From Elusimicrobiota bacterium (lineage in GTDB: Bacteria; CG03; SLGR01; PWQF01), in the NCBI GenBank assembly GCA_003557485.1, contig PWOI01000151.1:1-8961 (forward strand): a stretch of DNA of 8,961 nucleotides, in the 5' to 3' direction. The notes under the pieces are model-generated. The model was not told where the DNA came from. It did no database searches and was given only the letters and a program-made list of their open reading frames with translations. This document shows, piece by piece, positions 1-8,961 of this stretch; the first letter of the stretch is position 1; each line of letters opens with the position of its first letter. The position numbers and the translations under genes are program-made.

Positions 1-710
1 TCTCAGCCGATAAGCCGGAAAGCGAAGCTCTGGATGAATTTATAGACAAATTTTATCCTCCCGAAAAAACCGGCGTTCCTGACGGTGTGGAAAAAGAAAA
101 GAAAAAGTTTTACCAGTACCCCCTGCTTATTACTGCCCTGATTCTTCTTTTTCTCTTTGCCGGCGCCGCTTATTTCACAAGGGCCGGCCGCAGGGTTCTT
201 GCTCCCGCAGACGAAGTTGGAGTTATGCGCGGCGACATACTTATAAGAACGGATCCGCCGGGAGCTTCTGTGAGTATAAGAGGTGTTGATGTTAATTACA
301 GCAGCCAGCGCACATCCCCTGCGGATTTTGTCTCTCTTGAGGGAGGAAATTACCGGGTGCTTGTGGAAATGGATGGCTACGAGGAATGCTCCCTTGATGT
401 TTATCTTGACTCGGGCCGCCAGGAAACCCGGAACATTGAGCTTACTCCCCACAGGCAGGTCCATATTTCTTTAGGCTCCTCAATAGGGTTTAATCCGTCC
501 GAAATAATCTATCTGGACGGGGAACCCCTGATATATTATGGCCGGCCTCTTACGGTAAGCAGGGGAGGGTTCTCCGGGAAACGCATTAATATACCCTCCG
601 GCTCCCGGCATACCATAAGAATTGCAGGAAGGGAAAAGGTCATCGGGACAGGCTCTGAAAATGAACCGGTCCGGATTACTATAGAAAACGGGCAGATAAA
701 AGTTGAATAA
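1..710 (+). CDS. Membrane-anchored PEGA-domain protein, C-terminal part (5' end outside window)
   Basis: The frame is open from the window edge (first whole codon at 3) to the TAA at 708-710, giving 235 visible residues. A GTG at 87 could start a shorter protein, but the 28 upstream codons are open and encode a plausible acidic segment, and I see no ribosome binding site there, so I read the gene as entering from the left. Layout of the visible part: an acidic then Lys-rich cytoplasmic stretch (residues 1-38), one transmembrane helix (about 40-58, rich in Leu/Ile/Phe), a short Arg-rich stretch, and a PEGA domain from about 78 to 145 with the typical TDPPGA turn (83-88) and a Gly-Tyr near the end of the unit. 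The rest (146-235) is beta-rich and may be a degenerate second unit. The extracytoplasmic PEGA part probably has a structural or cell-wall-associated role. The unseen N-terminus may carry another domain. The REC-TM-PEGA protein at the far end of the locus has the same TM-PEGA layout. Confidence 0.8.
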   Translation, partial: SADKPESEALDEFIDKFYPPEKTGVPDGVEKEKKKFYQYPLLITALILLFLFAGAAYFTRAGRRVLAPADEVGVMRGDILIRTDPPGASVSIRGVDVNYSSQRTSPADFVSLEGGNYRVLVEMDGYEECSLDVYLDSGRQETRNIELTPHRQVHISLGSSIGFNPSEIIYLDGEPLIYYGRPLTVSRGGFSGKRINIPSGSRHTIRIAGREKVIGTGSENEPVRITIENGQIKVE

Positions 711-2519: not shown

Positions 2520-3005
2520 ATGAAGATTGACAGAAGGAAAAACGGAGGTTTCACACTGGTGGAACTTATCGTTGTGATGGTGATTGTAGGGATACTTGCA
2601 ATCATATCGGTGCCTATGTATACGAATTATGTTACAAGGGCACGGTCTCAAGAGGGGGTGGCTCTAGCTGGAGCTGTTCTTCAAGCAGTACGGTTGCATG
2701 GTGTTGAACATGGAAATTATAATAACCTTGATCCTACTAGACTTGGAATAAATCCCCAAACAAATAAGTTTTTTAGGAATTTTGGCATTAATAGTCCAGA
2801 TACTGCTAATTCTAATATACATGGTGTTGTTTTAGGTTCAGGAGCTATGGATGGAATTAATGTGTATTTTATCCACAGAATACAATCGAATGAAGAAGCT
2901 CGTATATCAGTGTGGGATTCCAATAACAATGAATTAGTTTCAGGAGAACATGCGCCTTCCGCTGGCCAGTTAGCACAACCTGGATATAGTTATTTCGATG
3001 AATAA
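2520..3005 (+). CDS. Type IV prepilin (PilA/PilE-like)
   Basis: Precursor of 161 residues with a short basic class III leader (residues 1-10, ending Gly-Gly) and the prepilin peptidase site G10/F11, followed by FTLVELIVVM. Glu15 is the conserved Glu5 of the mature protein. The hydrophobic N-terminal helix spans about 11-35 and continues as an amphipathic helix to about 60. The mature protein is about 151 residues and has no cysteine, so the disulfide-bounded D-region of Neisseria/Pseudomonas pilins is absent. I see no GspG-type calcium-site motif. It sits between pilB and pilM and is separated from pilM only by its own TAA. Whether it is the major or a minor pilin cannot be told, although the strong ribosome binding site favours major. 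The 5' third matches the locus in composition, but 2701-2940 falls to about 32% GC, against about 60% in the first part of pilM. Confidence 0.93.
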   Translation: MKIDRRKNGGFTLVELIVVMVIVGILAIISVPMYTNYVTRARSQEGVALAGAVLQAVRLHGVEHGNYNNLDPTRLGINPQTNKFFRNFGINSPDTANSNIHGVVLGSGAMDGINVYFIHRIQSNEEARISVWDSNNNELVSGEHAPSAGQLAQPGYSYFDE

Positions 3006-3998
3006 ATGCTCGGAATTGACATAGGAACAAAATATGTAAAAGCCTGCCAGGTTGATATGCGGGGCGGGGTTTTGCGTGATGTGCAGGTTGCATTGCAGGA
3101 GCTTCCCGGGGGGAATGATTCATTCTCTCCGGCAGCTGCCCGCGTTGCGCTTGAGAAACTGCTTGCCGGAGGGAAGTTCAGCTCCCGGCGGGCTGTTATG
3201 TCAATAGGAGGTCCGGGAACTGTAGTCAGGATTACTGATTTTCCGGTTATGCCGGCTGACGAAATACGGAGCAGCGTCAGGTTCAACGCCGAAAAGTACA
3301 TATATACCAGCCTGGAAGGAATGGATGTTGACACCTGTGTCCTTTCCAGGTCCGAAGAGAAACTTCGTGTGCTTGTGGCCGCCGCTCCCTCGGAAGCCGT
3401 AGATATGCGTGCCGGTATCGTTCATGAAGCGGGCTGTTTTGCTGAGATTGCGGATGTTGACGCTGTCGCTCTGGTGAACTGTTTTCTGAAGTTGAATTCC
3501 GGCGCATTTGCGGAAGACGGAGTAATCCTTGTTGACATAGGGCATACTTCTTCCGAGATTGTAGTATTGGAGAAGGGGGAGTTCTGTTTTGCCGGAAGCG
3601 CAAAGTTCGGGGGCAGCGCGGTGACAGCCGAAATTGTCTCCGAACTTGGAATTGAGCGTGATGAGGCCGAAAAACTAAAAAAAAATCCTGACTTATGGAA
3701 TAATGCCGGCCTGAAAATGGCAAACATACTGCGCAGAAGTTCCCCTGACCTTATTGAAAACCTGCATCGCACGATCGAGTACTGCCGCAGCAATAAGCTG
3801 GTTAAAAACATAAGCGCAATATATGTTACAGGAGGTTCCGCTATGCTTGACGGTATCTGTCCGGTGGTATCTAAAGTTCTGGGGTTAGGTGTTGAGGTCT
3901 GGAACCCTTTTGACAACCTTGATTTTGCAGGAGACAGGAGCAGCGGGCCTATGCTGGCAGTAGCACTGGGCCTTGCTTTACGCAGCAGCAATGATTGA
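3006..3998 (+). CDS. pilM: Type IV pilus inner-membrane assembly protein PilM
   Basis: Cytoplasmic actin-like ATPase-fold protein of 330 residues (family usually about 350) that binds the cytoplasmic N-terminus of PilN. Visible motifs are the phosphate-1 loop GIDIGTKYVK near the N-terminus (residues 3-12), the phosphate-2 loop VDIGHTSSE (176-184), and the adenosine-binding YVTGGSAMLDG (273-283). The first part resembles the SHS2/PilM family. The ATG follows the pilin TAA with no gap and in the same frame. No Shine-Dalgarno is visible in the 25 bases before it, so initiation probably depends on ribosomes finishing the pilin. The 3' end overlaps pilN by 8 bases. Confidence 0.93.
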   Translation: MLGIDIGTKYVKACQVDMRGGVLRDVQVALQELPGGNDSFSPAAARVALEKLLAGGKFSSRRAVMSIGGPGTVVRITDFPVMPADEIRSSVRFNAEKYIYTSLEGMDVDTCVLSRSEEKLRVLVAAAPSEAVDMRAGIVHEAGCFAEIADVDAVALVNCFLKLNSGAFAEDGVILVDIGHTSSEIVVLEKGEFCFAGSAKFGGSAVTAEIVSELGIERDEAEKLKKNPDLWNNAGLKMANILRRSSPDLIENLHRTIEYCRSNKLVKNISAIYVTGGSAMLDGICPVVSKVLGLGVEVWNPFDNLDFAGDRSSGPMLAVALGLALRSSND

Positions 3999-4623
3999 AA
4001 TAAACCTTATAAGAGACAGGGCGCTTACAAAGAAGATTGAGGATGGGTATATGCGTATTATAAAGATTGCCGCTATATCTGCGGGTGCTGTTATTTTGAT
4101 TTTAATCTCTTTCTATATCGCCCTGAGTGCAAGGATAAATAATTATGTTCATGAAGAAGAACAGGTGAGATCGGAAATAACCAGGCTGGTCAGGCGTTAC
4201 GCTATAGATGAGTGGCTTCGCTCCTGGTCCTACCTTGACAGCAGGGCAGGTTCTATAAAAGCTGTCGTTGAAGACAGGGTTAAGTATGCGCCGCGGATGG
4301 CTCTTATTGAAAACCTTCTTCCTGAAGGGATGCACCTCAGAAGCTTAGTCCTTGATTACGGGGCTGAAAGAATGTCTGCCGATTTGCTTGCGCTTCCCGG
4401 TTCCGAGGTGTCCGAAAAAGTAGAGTTATATGTCAAAGAGTTAGTTGAAGGCGGCGTACTGCCTTCCCATTCCGTAACAGACATAAGAAGAACCGGAATG
4501 ACGAGGGTTGAAGAAGAGAACCTTCTGGTCTTTACGATAAGCGCTGATTTTAAACAGTCGGATGGTTTCTTGGATTATGAAGACACCGATGGGCTTTACG
4601 TTGAGGACGACTGGGATGAATAA
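3991..4623 (+). CDS. pilN: Type IV pilus alignment protein PilN
   Basis: Bitopic inner-membrane protein of 210 residues. The N-terminus MIEINLI matches the short conserved PilN motif that inserts into PilM, which is why I take ATG 3991 and not the in-frame TTG at 3973. A transmembrane helix spans about 23-47. It is followed by a charged, probably coiled-coil segment (about 48-75) and a ferredoxin-like region (about 105-185) that would pair with PilO. The C-terminal 20 residues (191-210) are strongly acidic, with several Asp/Glu and aromatic residues, which is not a standard PilN feature. The start overlaps the pilM stop (ATGATTGA) without a visible Shine-Dalgarno, and the end overlaps the next gene (ATGAATAA), consistent with translational coupling and fixed stoichiometry. 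Confidence 0.88.
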   Translation: MIEINLIRDRALTKKIEDGYMRIIKIAAISAGAVILILISFYIALSARINNYVHEEEQVRSEITRLVRRYAIDEWLRSWSYLDSRAGSIKAVVEDRVKYAPRMALIENLLPEGMHLRSLVLDYGAERMSADLLALPGSEVSEKVELYVKELVEGGVLPSHSVTDIRRTGMTRVEEENLLVFTISADFKQSDGFLDYEDTDGLYVEDDWDE

Positions 4624-5563
4624 GCAGCAGTATATTAATTCTTTTAAGCAAAAGGCTTTTTTAGGAGGGGGAGTATTTCTCCTTCTGGTTCTTATTGTGG
4701 TCCTGTTTCTTATACGCCCCGCGGTCCATAAGGTCTCTGATTCTCAAACCCGGCTCAACAGGGCGCGCAGGCAATTCAGTGAATTGAATGCAGCGGTTGG
4801 AGATTTGCTTGAATACAGGGAAAAACAGCAGGAAGTGGAAGGCGTCCTTGAAAGCTTCTCTGGATACATAGTGGCCACTGCGACCGGTCCTGTTCCGGAA
4901 GAAAAGTTTCAGGGCGCCCTGCGGGAAATGAGCCCTGTAAGTTTTGGGGGGTTTGGCAGGGGGGAAACAGCATATGCTCCGGCAGGATACAAAAAACAGC
5001 TATGGGAGCTGAGCCTGAGTTCTTCTTACAATGATCTTTTTGATTTTATAAAAGAAATAGAAACCTATGAGAAGTTTGTGGGTGTAACCCGCCTTGAGAT
5101 AAAAAGCGGGGAATTTGAAAACACACATAAAGTACTGCTTACATTATACTCAATTCTGGATGAAATTTCCGAAACACTACCTACCGAATTTGATGATGAT
5201 TATGTACAGCTTCTGGAACTTTCCGAATCGGTAATCGAGACAGTCGAGGGACTTATGCTGTCTTTCGGAGTTGATTCTGATGCTGATACTTTAGAGGTTG
5301 ATCGTGACCCCTTCTATTTTAAAAATACTCTTTTCATAGAAGAGGCTCCTGAAACTCCGGAAGCGCCACCTGCACCGCCTCCGTCTCCGCCCCGTCTTAT
5401 TCTGGGCGGAATTGTATGGGATGATCAGGATACTGTAGCTGTAATAAACGGGGAAATCTTCCGGGAAGGAGAGAGTGTAAGGGGCGCTAGAGTTGAAAGA
5501 ATAGAAAGAAACTATGTTCTGCTTCAGTGGCGGGGAAGGTTTATAAGGCTGGAAATAGATTAA
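4616..5563 (+). CDS. pilO: PilO-type alignment protein with a C-terminal PilP/GspC-like domain (PilO-PilP fusion)
   Basis: Protein of 315 residues, clearly longer than a usual PilO (about 200). I chose ATG 4616, which has GAGGA 8 bases upstream and starts just before a normal PilO N-terminus; the frame extends further upstream only inside pilN. The PilO part has a transmembrane helix (about 16-34), a coiled coil (about 40-80) and a ferredoxin-like domain (about 95-182). An acidic segment follows (183-228), then RDPF (230-233), a tetrapeptide typical of PilP proteins, then a Pro/Glu-rich linker (242-259). The last 56 residues (260-315) form a small beta-domain: ILGGIVW, then AVINGEIFREGE, then a hydrophobic strand and a terminal basic strand. 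This is the pattern of the PilP/GspC homology region, which contacts the secretin N0 domain. I infer that one polypeptide does the work of PilO and PilP. No separate PilP lipoprotein is seen between here and pilQ. Confidence 0.87.
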   Translation: MNKQQYINSFKQKAFLGGGVFLLLVLIVVLFLIRPAVHKVSDSQTRLNRARRQFSELNAAVGDLLEYREKQQEVEGVLESFSGYIVATATGPVPEEKFQGALREMSPVSFGGFGRGETAYAPAGYKKQLWELSLSSSYNDLFDFIKEIETYEKFVGVTRLEIKSGEFENTHKVLLTLYSILDEISETLPTEFDDDYVQLLELSESVIETVEGLMLSFGVDSDADTLEVDRDPFYFKNTLFIEEAPETPEAPPAPPPSPPRLILGGIVWDDQDTVAVINGEIFREGESVRGARVERIERNYVLLQWRGRFIRLEID

Positions 5564-5592: not shown

Positions 5593-6783
5593 ATGATTAA
5601 AAAGAAGCTTGTGGCGGCGGCGGCGCTGGTAATGCTGCTGGCTGTTTCCGGAATAGCAGCGGAGCGGAGGATTTCTCTTGATTTCCAGGGGGTTCCTCTC
5701 AGGACTGTACTGAGAATACTGGGAAACAGAACAGACAAGAAACTTGTTACGGATTCCGAATTAGCCGGAAAAAACATTGTGTTAACCCTGGACGATGTCA
5801 CTCCCAATGAAGCTATAGATACTCTTGTTCACGCATACGGGCTTTATTATGTAAGGCAACCCGGAACAGATATTTATATTATAAGGGACAGAACCGAAAG
5901 GGCCCCTATAACAGTTTCCCATGTTATTAACCTAAGCCATTCGGATGCTTCTTTAATGGTAAGAACGCTTGAGCCCAACTTGAGCCCCGGCGGAAACATC
6001 GTAGCTGACCAGCGGACAAACTCTATAATAATAAACGATATTGCCGAAAACATACATAAGATAGAGGACCTGGTCAGGAAATTAGATTATCCGACACCTC
6101 AGGTAATGATTGAATCCAGGATAATCGAGACTAATATTACTGACGGGTTCCGCATCGGAATGGACCTTACTGACTTCACTAAAGTTGACGGCCCTGATTT
6201 CCCGGTTTACAACCAGGTGTTTTCACCGGGTGTCGGAGGGGTTACATTAAAGACAACACTGCTGGAAAGCGGCTATAACATAGATTCCCTCATTGAGGCA
6301 ATACAGACTAAAACAGAGGCGCGGCTTCTCAATAACCCCAAGGTTCTCGTCCTCAGCAATGAGACAGCATCTATAAATGTTCTTGAGGAGGTTCCATACC
6401 GCGAGGTACAACGCGTTACAGACGAGGGAACCACTGTAGAGGGAATATCTTTCAAGGAGATGGGGGTAAGTATTGAGGTGACTCCTTATGTGAACAGGGA
6501 CGGGACCATTATTATGAGAGTTGAGCCTTCACACAGCTTTCAGACCGGTGTAATGGATAATGTTCCGGTTATAAAAGACAGCAGAGCCAGAACCGCTCTC
6601 AGGATAAGCGACGGTCAGACTGTTGTAATCGGCGGGCTGATAAGAGAGAGCGATTCTCTATCGGAAGAAAAAGTTCCTTTGCTTGGCGATATACCGATTT
6701 TGGGATATTTCTTTAAAAGTACAAGCCGCGATAAGGTAAGGAGCGAACTTACCATATTTATAACTGCGAGGATAGTTGACTAA
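5593..6783 (+). CDS. pilQ: Type IV pilus secretin PilQ (compact form)
   Basis: Outer-membrane secretin of 396 residues forming the gate for the pilus. A Sec signal peptide covers about 1-23 (three Lys, a hydrophobic core, then an Ala-rich cleavage region). An N0/STN domain follows (about 26-99, starting ISLDFQGVPLRTVL). Next is an N1 secretin_N domain (about 106-166, with DQRTNSIIINDI), then the secretin beta-barrel domain (about 168-396). The barrel domain opens at PQVMIESRIIET and ends with the family signature VPLLGDIPILGYFF (361-374) and a SELTIFITARIV final strand. Proteobacterial PilQ is usually about 700 residues because of N-terminal AMIN domains that bind peptidoglycan. These are absent, so only one N0, one N1 and the barrel remain. 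I see no C-terminal pilotin-binding extension and no lipobox. The N0 domain would be the docking site for the PilP-like domain encoded just upstream. Confidence 0.93.
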   Translation: MIKKKLVAAAALVMLLAVSGIAAERRISLDFQGVPLRTVLRILGNRTDKKLVTDSELAGKNIVLTLDDVTPNEAIDTLVHAYGLYYVRQPGTDIYIIRDRTERAPITVSHVINLSHSDASLMVRTLEPNLSPGGNIVADQRTNSIIINDIAENIHKIEDLVRKLDYPTPQVMIESRIIETNITDGFRIGMDLTDFTKVDGPDFPVYNQVFSPGVGGVTLKTTLLESGYNIDSLIEAIQTKTEARLLNNPKVLVLSNETASINVLEEVPYREVQRVTDEGTTVEGISFKEMGVSIEVTPYVNRDGTIIMRVEPSHSFQTGVMDNVPVIKDSRARTALRISDGQTVVIGGLIRESDSLSEEKVPLLGDIPILGYFFKSTSRDKVRSELTIFITARIVD

Positions 6784-6794
6784 AAACCTTCGCA

Positions 6795-8961
6795 ATGGAT
6801 GAAAAAATTAAAATATTTATTATTGATGATGATGCCAACCTTGTAGAAGCCCTTAAACTCTATCTTCAGAACATCGGTTACCTTACCGAAAGCGCTGACT
6901 GCGGCAGCCAGGCCGTTGATAAGTTCAAAAAGGGAGATTTTGACATTATCTTGTGCGATTACAACCTTCCCGACACTAAGGGACTTCAGCTTATTGAAAA
7001 GCTTGTTGCGGTAGATTCCGAGGCTGTTCCCGTCTTAATAACGGGTGTAAGTTCAATGGAGCTTGCCATGGAAGCAATGCGCAAAGGAGTCAGGGACTAT
7101 CTTGTAAAGCCGGTGGATTATACCGAACTTGAAAGTGTTTTGGCTGATATTGTGAAAGAAAAAAATGAACCGGAGAGGCCTTCCCCTAAGAAGACTAAAC
7201 TAAAGTCTGACGAGCCTCCCAGCCCGGCTGAGGATACCGTAAAAAAGTCCCCCGATACAGAAAGCATCCCTAAAGAAAAAAGCGTTAAGGCCACTGCAGG
7301 CCAAGGCCTTGAAATGAAATCAGAAGAAGAACTTCTTGCAGGATTTAAAGATAAAGAAAAGACAGTTTTTGACTTTGTTATTGACAAAACCAACCTTATA
7401 AAGCGGCAGCTTAAGAAGTATTCTTTATATATTTTTATTTTTCTTTTTTTAGCATTAGTTGCTGACACGCTGGTTTTTCAGGTCTCAGGTCCGGCTGTTT
7501 TTCTGTACAACAGGTTGAACCCTCCCGATTTTATAATAGATTCTATTCCATCCGGGGCTGTGGCAGAAATTATATCTGATGATGGGGCAAATATCTTGGA
7601 TACTGGCAGGAGAACCCCGCTTCGGATTGATAAAATACCTCCGGGCTCATATAGCATTTCATTGAATAAAGAAGGGTTTAAGACTATCAATAGAACAATA
7701 ACTGTTTATGAGAGTTCCCCCAATGGTGAAGGAGTAATTATCCCCGGCTCCTCAAGAAAATACTCCGATAGTGGAATTGCGGAGTTTTATTTGCCCCTTG
7801 AAGTGGTTTTGAATATTAATTCGCAGCCGCCGGGCGCAGTTGTTTTTATTAATGAAAAGAAAAAGGCAATACGGACTCCTTTATCAATTGACGTTCCTAC
7901 AGGCAGGGATAATATTGTTCTTGAAAAGAATGGGTTTCCTGCTCTTGGAACCACCGCTATAGGAGATATTGAAGGAAGGTGTCTTCTTGATTTTCGCCCC
8001 GGAAGCAGCAATGACATTGATTTAAGGTTCTGGGATATCGAAACAACCGAAGACGGGGTTTCGCTGATAGGCAGGTTCTTGCAGGAAGTAAAAGTAAAAT
8101 CAGAACCGCCTGGGGCGACAATATTTCTTGATGGGAATAATGTTGGTGTCACGCCCCTTAAAAAAAGAATGGCAGCCGGAATTTATGAAATGCGTGTTTT
8201 AAAGGAAGGTTTTTCTGTTTGGGAAGGGGAGTTGGATGTGTCAACGCAGCCTGAAGTTGAAGTTATGCTTGCGAAAAATATAGTTTTCAGGGCCAGGGAT
8301 ACTGATACAGGCAGGGTACTTCCGGCACAGCTTACTATAAATGGAGAGGAGGTAGAAGGACAGACACCCTTAGAAAAGGAACTGCTTCCGGGGACTTACA
8401 GTATTTCATTTACTCATTCCGGATACAGTCCCTGGAGAAGAGATATAAGGATAAGCGGCCAGGACAACCTGACAGCCGATATGCGCCGGGAAATGCATCA
8501 GGTTACGATGCAGGTCATTGATTCTGCTGATTCCCGACCGGTAGGCGGGGCTTCTGTCTACATAGGCGACAGGAAAGTTGCCGAGTCCTCCGGGGACGGT
8601 AAAGTCCCGTTAACTATAATTATGCGCCCGCATACATTTATAATAAGGGCTTCCGGTTACGACCCCGTTACATTCAATTATGAAAATCCACAACCGGGCG
8701 ATTCTTTTGACGTTTTTCTTTCCCGGACAGATACGCCTGTTTCTTCTGGCGATGATGAAGATGAGCGGCCAGTTGGTGTTTCTGAAGTTATTATTGATAC
8801 TCGGCCAAACTTTTCGGGAGCGTCCATATACCTTGACGGTGAGCGAGTTGGTGAGACTGTGAGGCGTATACCGGAGCTTTCTGCCGGCAGATATCTGCTG
8901 GCAATAGAACATTCACTTATAGGCAGGGTGGAGTCCTCTTTAGATGTTGAAGCGGACAAAA
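6795..8961 (+). CDS. Membrane-spanning response regulator: REC domain, TM helix and PEGA repeat array (3' end outside window)
   Basis: The frame is open without a stop from ATG 6795 to the right edge (722 codons). It starts 11 bases after the pilQ stop, with no clear Shine-Dalgarno, and an in-frame TGA at 6777 bars earlier starts. Residues 1-118 are a receiver domain: acidic pocket D11-D13, phosphoacceptor D55 in LCDYNLPD, T83 and K105 in VKP, all key residues present. A flexible Pro/Lys/Glu-rich linker follows (about 120-195). A basic stretch (KRQLKKY) then leads into one transmembrane helix (about 209-230), which by the positive-inside rule puts REC in the cytoplasm and the rest outside the inner membrane. 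From residue 245 on there are at least six beta-rich PEGA or carboxypeptidase-regulatory-like units. No DNA-binding, GGDEF, kinase or other output domain is visible before the edge. No histidine kinase is nearby. The role is inferred only: a phosphorylation-responsive partner of the pilus machine, or a cell-envelope scaffold. Confidence 0.85.
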   Translation, partial: MDEKIKIFIIDDDANLVEALKLYLQNIGYLTESADCGSQAVDKFKKGDFDIILCDYNLPDTKGLQLIEKLVAVDSEAVPVLITGVSSMELAMEAMRKGVRDYLVKPVDYTELESVLADIVKEKNEPERPSPKKTKLKSDEPPSPAEDTVKKSPDTESIPKEKSVKATAGQGLEMKSEEELLAGFKDKEKTVFDFVIDKTNLIKRQLKKYSLYIFIFLFLALVADTLVFQVSGPAVFLYNRLNPPDFIIDSIPSGAVAEIISDDGANILDTGRRTPLRIDKIPPGSYSISLNKEGFKTINRTITVYESSPNGEGVIIPGSSRKYSDSGIAEFYLPLEVVLNINSQPPGAVVFINEKKKAIRTPLSIDVPTGRDNIVLEKNGFPALGTTAIGDIEGRCLLDFRPGSSNDIDLRFWDIETTEDGVSLIGRFLQEVKVKSEPPGATIFLDGNNVGVTPLKKRMAAGIYEMRVLKEGFSVWEGELDVSTQPEVEVMLAKNIVFRARDTDTGRVLPAQLTINGEEVEGQTPLEKELLPGTYSISFTHSGYSPWRRDIRISGQDNLTADMRREMHQVTMQVIDSADSRPVGGASVYIGDRKVAESSGDGKVPLTIIMRPHTFIIRASGYDPVTFNYENPQPGDSFDVFLSRTDTPVSSGDDEDERPVGVSEVIIDTRPNFSGASIYLDGERVGETVRRIPELSAGRYLLAIEHSLIGRVESSLDVEADK
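7527..8960 (+). repeat. Protein-level tandem PEGA-like repeats
   Basis: At least six diverged units lie in the extracytoplasmic part of the REC-TM-PEGA protein: about 7527-7709, 7800-7937, 8082-8249, 8277-8459, 8493-8690 and 8778-8960. Shared marks are a PPGA-like turn after the first strand (QPPGA, EPPGA; SIPSGA in unit 1; NFSGA in unit 6), a T-P-L segment in the middle, then a PPGSYSIS or LPGTYSIS strand and a Gly-Phe/Gly-Tyr near the end. Units 4 and 5 resemble carboxypeptidase-regulatory domains (D-x-x-T/S-x-x-x-P-x-x-A). The array may continue past the window. The repeats are recognisable as protein only and show no long DNA identity, so they are old duplications. Confidence 0.75.

Follow-up and report, generated by a model that had tools for sequence, protein, structure and literature searches.

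The analysed window, meaning the whole 8,961-nt stretch of contig C90 of an Elusimicrobiota bacterium (assembly G000, 87% complete), carries the following genes, all on the forward strand.

3..710, + strand: PP2C phosphatase-TM-PEGA protein, C-terminal part (its N-terminus lies on contig C139)
769..2460, + strand: pilB/GspE-type ATPase with an MshEN domain (T2SSE 2.5e-137, MshEN 7.8e-20)
2520..3005, + strand: type IV pilin-like protein (N_methyl 4.9e-9)
3006..3998, + strand: pilM (PilM_2 2.2e-40)
3991..4623, + strand: pilN, identified from its place in the operon and a single hydrophobic segment near the N-terminus, without a Pfam hit; start chosen within the ORF 3973-4623
4616..5563, + strand: pilO carrying a PilP-type (GspC/T2SSB-like) domain at its C-terminus; we chose the start within the ORF 4562-5563
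5593..6783, + strand: short pilQ (N0/N1/secretin, no AMIN), 11 nt ahead of the REC gene
6795..8960, + strand: REC-TM-PEGA protein; its 722 codons run up to the contig end, which cuts off about 20 more at the C-terminus

With its downstream part taken from relatives, the operon has the order pilB, pilin, pilM, pilN, pilO, pilQ, REC, TPR, pilT and pilC, and encodes a second type IV pilus machine. The gene joining a receiver (REC) domain to a transmembrane (TM) helix and a PEGA array lies directly downstream of the short pilQ in G000 and in the relatives G005, G002 and G007, which upholds the tight link to pilus genes proposed in the original prediction. In 4/4 relatives (these three and G003) it is followed by a gene for a secreted TPR protein, which overlaps the REC gene stop by 4 nt (three full-length relatives and G003), and in G005 and G003 pilT and pilC, named by position and opening residues, come next. 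The REC thus has a fixed place in pilMNOQ operons across genomes. The C-terminal domain of PilO gave weak, sub-threshold matches, to T2SSB in all four homologues and to T2SSM in two. This GspC/PilP-like domain is apparently fused to PilO (4616-5563); by eye, locus L095 has a similar domain encoded on its own, by a gene of 118 aa.

The short pilQ was found in exactly 4 of the 16 phylum genomes, namely the four with a full REC-TM-PEGA gene, and a longer secretin in most or all of the 16. The long PilQ of G000 has an AMIN domain (E = 1.1e-9), for which the short PilQ gave no match, and is accompanied by its own pilM, pilN and pilO and a small lipoprotein-like gene. This second pilM-N-O-(P)-Q set lies on contig C31 (L072, 4969-9509), and its secretin type recurs across the phylum.

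One open frame, running from the ATG at 6795 to the window end, encodes the REC domain, a disordered linker, one TM helix and the PEGA array, with these parts:

6795..7166, + strand: receiver domain, residues 1-124 (Response_reg 1.8e-22; AF2 REC fold; in one clade with stand-alone pilus RECs)
6957-6959, 7041-7043 and 7107-7109, + strand: active-site codons of D55, T83 and K105, which together with D11/D12 are all present
7167..7349, + strand: linker, long and rich in Pro/Lys/Glu/Ser, predicted disordered, poorly conserved
7350..7388, + strand: juxtamembrane motif DKEKTVFDFVIDK with T190 and an Asp at +3, found in 3/4 REC-TM-PEGA proteins and common to most Ser/Thr kinase (STPK)-TM-PEGA proteins
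7422..7478, + strand: the one TM helix (residues 210-228), oriented N-in according to the positive-inside rule
7530..8714, + strand: PEGA units 1-5, one also matching CarboxypepD_reg; extracytoplasmic stalk
8781..8960, + strand: C-terminal PEGA unit 6, the best conserved part of the stalk

A Pfam search of the window protein identified Response_reg (E = 1.8e-22, residues 7-115) and PEGA (E = 6.2e-49), five stretches of the latter being individually significant; the count of six units follows our own boundaries. The receiver has the REC fold with the DD, D, T/S and K residues of family PF00072, and the loss of phosphorylation residues that marks pseudo-receivers is not seen. No output domain other than REC, PEGA and PEGA-like domains was detected by Pfam, nor a protein kinase domain, nor a LysM or AMIN match. 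In this the protein differs from classical response regulators, whose output is a cytoplasmic DNA-binding or enzymatic domain. The hydropathy profile contains one strong segment (residues 210-228, mean KD 2.36), preceded by five K/R in 15 residues and followed by one, and therefore an N-in topology is predicted. The AF2 model (mean pLDDT 75, built from five sequences only) shows a REC fold (1-124), disorder (126-194), a helix (192-241) and beta domains (246-718). The closest solved structures were REC domains and, for the stalk, at a low TM-score, the Bacillus anthracis TIE protein. Tandem Repeats Finder detected no DNA repeat, which indicates that the PEGA units have diverged at the DNA level. 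Among the REC-TM-PEGA homologues the REC (46-58% identity) and unit 6 (32-62%) are best conserved, and the linker is the least conserved part (11-33%). The intact receiver, the single TM helix and the at least six PEGA-like units that had been read from the sequence are thereby borne out. As to the end of the gene, the frame stays open to the contig end (C90:8961), which is also the window end; the stop codon lies beyond it, and the homologues run about 20 residues further.

Searches with profile A1 revealed full-length REC-TM-PEGA proteins in G000 and in the relatives G002, G005 and G007; G003 yielded the C-terminal fragment of one. All these genomes belong to one order, within which G005, G002 and G007 represent three further genera. 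No full-length member was found in the remaining phylum genomes (16 examined), or among about 670 other genomes (about 370 domain-wide, with only two candidates scored per genome, and 294 in the phylum of G345), so that none was seen away from pilus genes, in agreement with the proposed co-occurrence. In total, the searches comprised about 1,480 overlapping genome scans, out of 97,973 genomes. No published paper combining PEGA with a receiver, a pilus or a response regulator was found in open-licence PMC, and within that literature the architecture is, as supposed, undescribed. Although the gene stops at the contig end, an assembly or frameshift artefact fusing two genes was rejected and has practically no chance of being correct, since the same architecture occupies a single stop-free ORF in G005, G002 and G007, three genomes of different genera.

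The TM-PEGA part of the window protein (the chassis) is homologous to that of Ser/Thr kinase-TM-PEGA receptors, which are encoded in the same superlocus (described below), in the same genomes and elsewhere. Both kinds of protein share this chassis and, in most of the kinases, the juxtamembrane motif KT[VI][FI][DE], whose Thr with Asp at +3 we take to resemble an FHA-binding site. They differ in the head, which is a kinase in the receptors and a REC in the window protein, and in the end of the array, most kinase arrays lacking a unit-6-like end. When the arrays were cut at a conserved motif and compared, the REC-TM-PEGA chassis formed one group (support 79/86), consistent with a single fusion; apparently the REC acquired its TM-PEGA part once, in the ancestor of the order, from a receptor of the Ser/Thr kinase type. 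The only strong match of unit 6 outside the REC-TM-PEGA proteins was a PEGA protein of G082 (L068, 7813-10120), which is followed by an overlapping gene for a secreted TPR protein; the part of this locus that was read contains no pilus genes. The G082 protein is truncated at its N-terminus and Pfam sees only PEGA, a kinase head being our reading of its short N-terminal stretch. In another phylum (G130, L067 4930-9198), REC, STPK, TM, PEGA and TPR are found as one 1422-aa protein.

At 25 loci in the phylum of G345 the same REC is a stand-alone protein that has neither PEGA nor TM. PilQ is adjacent at 22 and the TPR gene at 24 of these loci, compared with an adjacent PilQ in 1/26 control RECs. 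The three loci without PilQ comprise two at contig ends and one with a PilO-like ORF directly upstream of the REC. The TPR proteins of both phyla align over 188 columns (hhalign probability 98.8, a score that TPR repeats can inflate). These RECs without PEGA (165-330 aa) scored 131-221 bits against profile A2, and the best match outside the order among the 370 domain genomes scored 133 bits; the ranges overlap at the low end, where synteny and the tree therefore carry the argument. In the tree, the 29 pilus-linked RECs form one clade (support 100/98), and the REC-TM-PEGA proteins form a clade (99/97) inside it, the nesting itself being weakly supported. All five phosphorylation residues are kept in 28/29 pilus-linked RECs; the exception, G007, has lost DD2 and has K at position 12, and a member of this type may be phosphorylation-independent. 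The C-terminus of most stand-alone RECs is a basic, hydrophobic tail ([FY][YW]W[GA] in 18/25), which, as a guess, may bind the membrane. Those at L151, L153 and L154 have long N-terminal extensions of about 100-150 aa.

The original prediction regarded the PEGA array as the output of the receiver. Since orthologous pilus-linked RECs have no TM or PEGA, the REC can work without the array, and this part of the prediction does not hold. The stand-alone REC is likely the ancestral form, on account of its wider spread as much as of the tree, in which the nesting is weak. From these comparisons we consider it very probable that the receiver is an old component of the pilus and that PEGA was acquired as a tether. 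Despite the synteny, the target of the stand-alone RECs could lie outside the pilus.

The first 121 nt of the window (1-121) are an exact overlap with the end of contig C139 (20239-20359), and the PP2C frame continues across it. An end that two contigs share may also reflect branching at a repeat, but G005 has the same order, except for a gap inside the FHA gene. The superlocus joined in this way consists of REC, histidine kinase, REC-REC, REC-kinase, two STPK-TM-PEGA, FHA-TM-FG-GAP and PP2C-TM-PEGA genes, followed by the pilus operon. Its PP2C carries a shorter form of the chassis borne by the kinases. An FHA-TM-FG-GAP beta-propeller protein (L029, 17236-19440, with homologues at L028, L067, L069 and L070) is regularly encoded beside STPK and PP2C genes, and the three apparently constitute a conserved envelope Ser/Thr-signalling set. 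Of the nearby kinases that had been anticipated, an orphan histidine kinase or CheA, the first finds a counterpart in histidine kinases upstream in G000, at C139:3007 and C139:5475, and, by ORF similarity, in G005, over 20 kb from the REC gene; among candidate phosphate donors of the REC, those of the superlocus rank first. For the second, no CheW-domain match was obtained in G000 (87% complete) or G007 (incomplete), which, within the limits of these two assemblies, may speak against CheA as an obligate partner; such matches are present in G002, G003 and G005.

Among known systems, the nearest working precedent is FrzS of Myxococcus xanthus, whose receiver recruits SgmX, which in turn promotes recruitment of PilB (PMC11580455, PMC12632262). 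In both cases a receiver and a localisation module act, or would act, on type IV pilus formation, but FrzS couples a pseudo-receiver to a coiled coil in the cytoplasm, whereas the window receiver is intact, membrane-anchored and encoded in a pilMNOQ operon. PilG and PilH of the Pil-Chp system of P. aeruginosa, likewise REC proteins, govern whether pili extend or retract; they are single-domain, soluble and fed by a CheA-type kinase. The likeness to them would lie in a REC steering pili; the window protein is membrane-anchored, and no CheW-domain protein was found in its own 87%-complete assembly. The best background REC matches were mostly parts of longer regulators, one of them an NtrC-type regulator encoded directly downstream of a secretin gene in G334 (L105, 526-3363). 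From NtrC/PilR-type response regulators the window protein differs in having no AAA+ or DNA-binding domain. TsaP and the AMIN domains of PilQ attach the pilus secretin to the envelope; the stalk may have a similar role, although the PEGA protein gave no LysM or AMIN match.

We propose, with a probability of about 0.5, that the REC-TM-PEGA protein is a phosphorylation-switched docking site tethered at the base of the pilus. In this reading the second type IV pilus machine has the REC as a dedicated, phosphorylatable receiver. The protein would be kept with the envelope-side portion of that machine by its PEGA stalk, the conserved unit 6 and the secreted TPR neighbour probably mediating this, and the REC, on its flexible leash, would act locally on the cytoplasmic face, where it would recruit or release PilB, PilM, PilT or an adaptor and so set extension versus retraction, with the phosphate most likely supplied by one of the superlocus histidine kinases. 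The partner contacts, the donor kinase and the direction of the effect are all inferred. A tethered docking switch is favoured over transmembrane gating by the stand-alone orthologues and by the conservation of the REC and unit 6 as against the variable linker; of the two earlier ideas, envelope gating and a cytoplasmic tag at the pilus base, the tag thus comes close to the reading preferred here and the gating loses ground. What counts against a tether is that a purely cytoplasmic function would need fewer than six stalk units, and this excess over the need of a membrane anchor leaves room for a sensory role of the array.

Such a role is the essence of an outside-in sensor, in which the PEGA array and the TPR protein would respond to load on the pilus, to the secretin or to the envelope; the tails would cluster and thereby alter how well kinases reach the REC or Thr190. 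The REC would then be a point of signal entry alongside the Ser/Thr kinases and the PP2C that bear PEGA in the same locus. The presence of the chassis on the kinases and, in shorter form, on the phosphatase of the superlocus is what a shared receptor module would be expected to show, and unit 6 recurs in the G082 PEGA protein, also ahead of a secreted TPR gene. Nevertheless, orthologous RECs have no ectodomain, so sensing by the array is unlikely to be ancestral, and the linker is disordered and unconserved; on balance we regard this reading as unlikely. It is likewise a speculative thought, and an unlikely one, that the pilus node joins His-Asp and Ser/Thr phosphorylation, with a histidine kinase switching Asp55, the PEGA-bearing Ser/Thr kinases phosphorylating Thr190, the FHA protein of the superlocus reading it, and shared PEGA stalks uniting kinase, phosphatase and receiver at the pilus.

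In the opposite direction, phosphorylation of the intact REC could alter the attachment of PEGA to PilQ or peptidoglycan and so gate or anchor the pilus, and the array may replace the AMIN domain for which the short PilQ, unlike the long PilQ of the same genome, gave no match. The replacement of AMIN by PEGA is weakened by the other phylum, where the operon of the short PilQ includes the REC as a stand-alone protein but nothing that bears PEGA; an array is therefore not required to take the place of AMIN. The linker of about 65 residues between REC and TM, disordered and 11-33% identical, is moreover a poor route for rigid allostery and unsuited to passing on a conformational change of the REC, and the phosphorylation gating of the original prediction therefore appears improbable. 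Still more doubtful is a structural stator or scaffold, whose stalk would brace the machine while the REC, independent of phosphorylation, would be either vestigial or a docking domain that is always active: G007 has no DD2, and pili can be controlled by receivers that are not phosphorylated, as the example of FrzS shows, but the five residues are retained in all the other pilus-linked RECs.

The analysis identifies an apparently undescribed, conserved receiver gene in the pilMNOQ operons of at least two phyla, with its phosphorylation sites intact. One lineage appears to have changed the anchor of this receiver from a tail to TM-PEGA, a receptor stalk having been transferred between two kinds of protein, Ser/Thr kinases and two-component receivers. 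Local switching of a pilus machine, apart from transcription or a chemosensory array, becomes directly testable.
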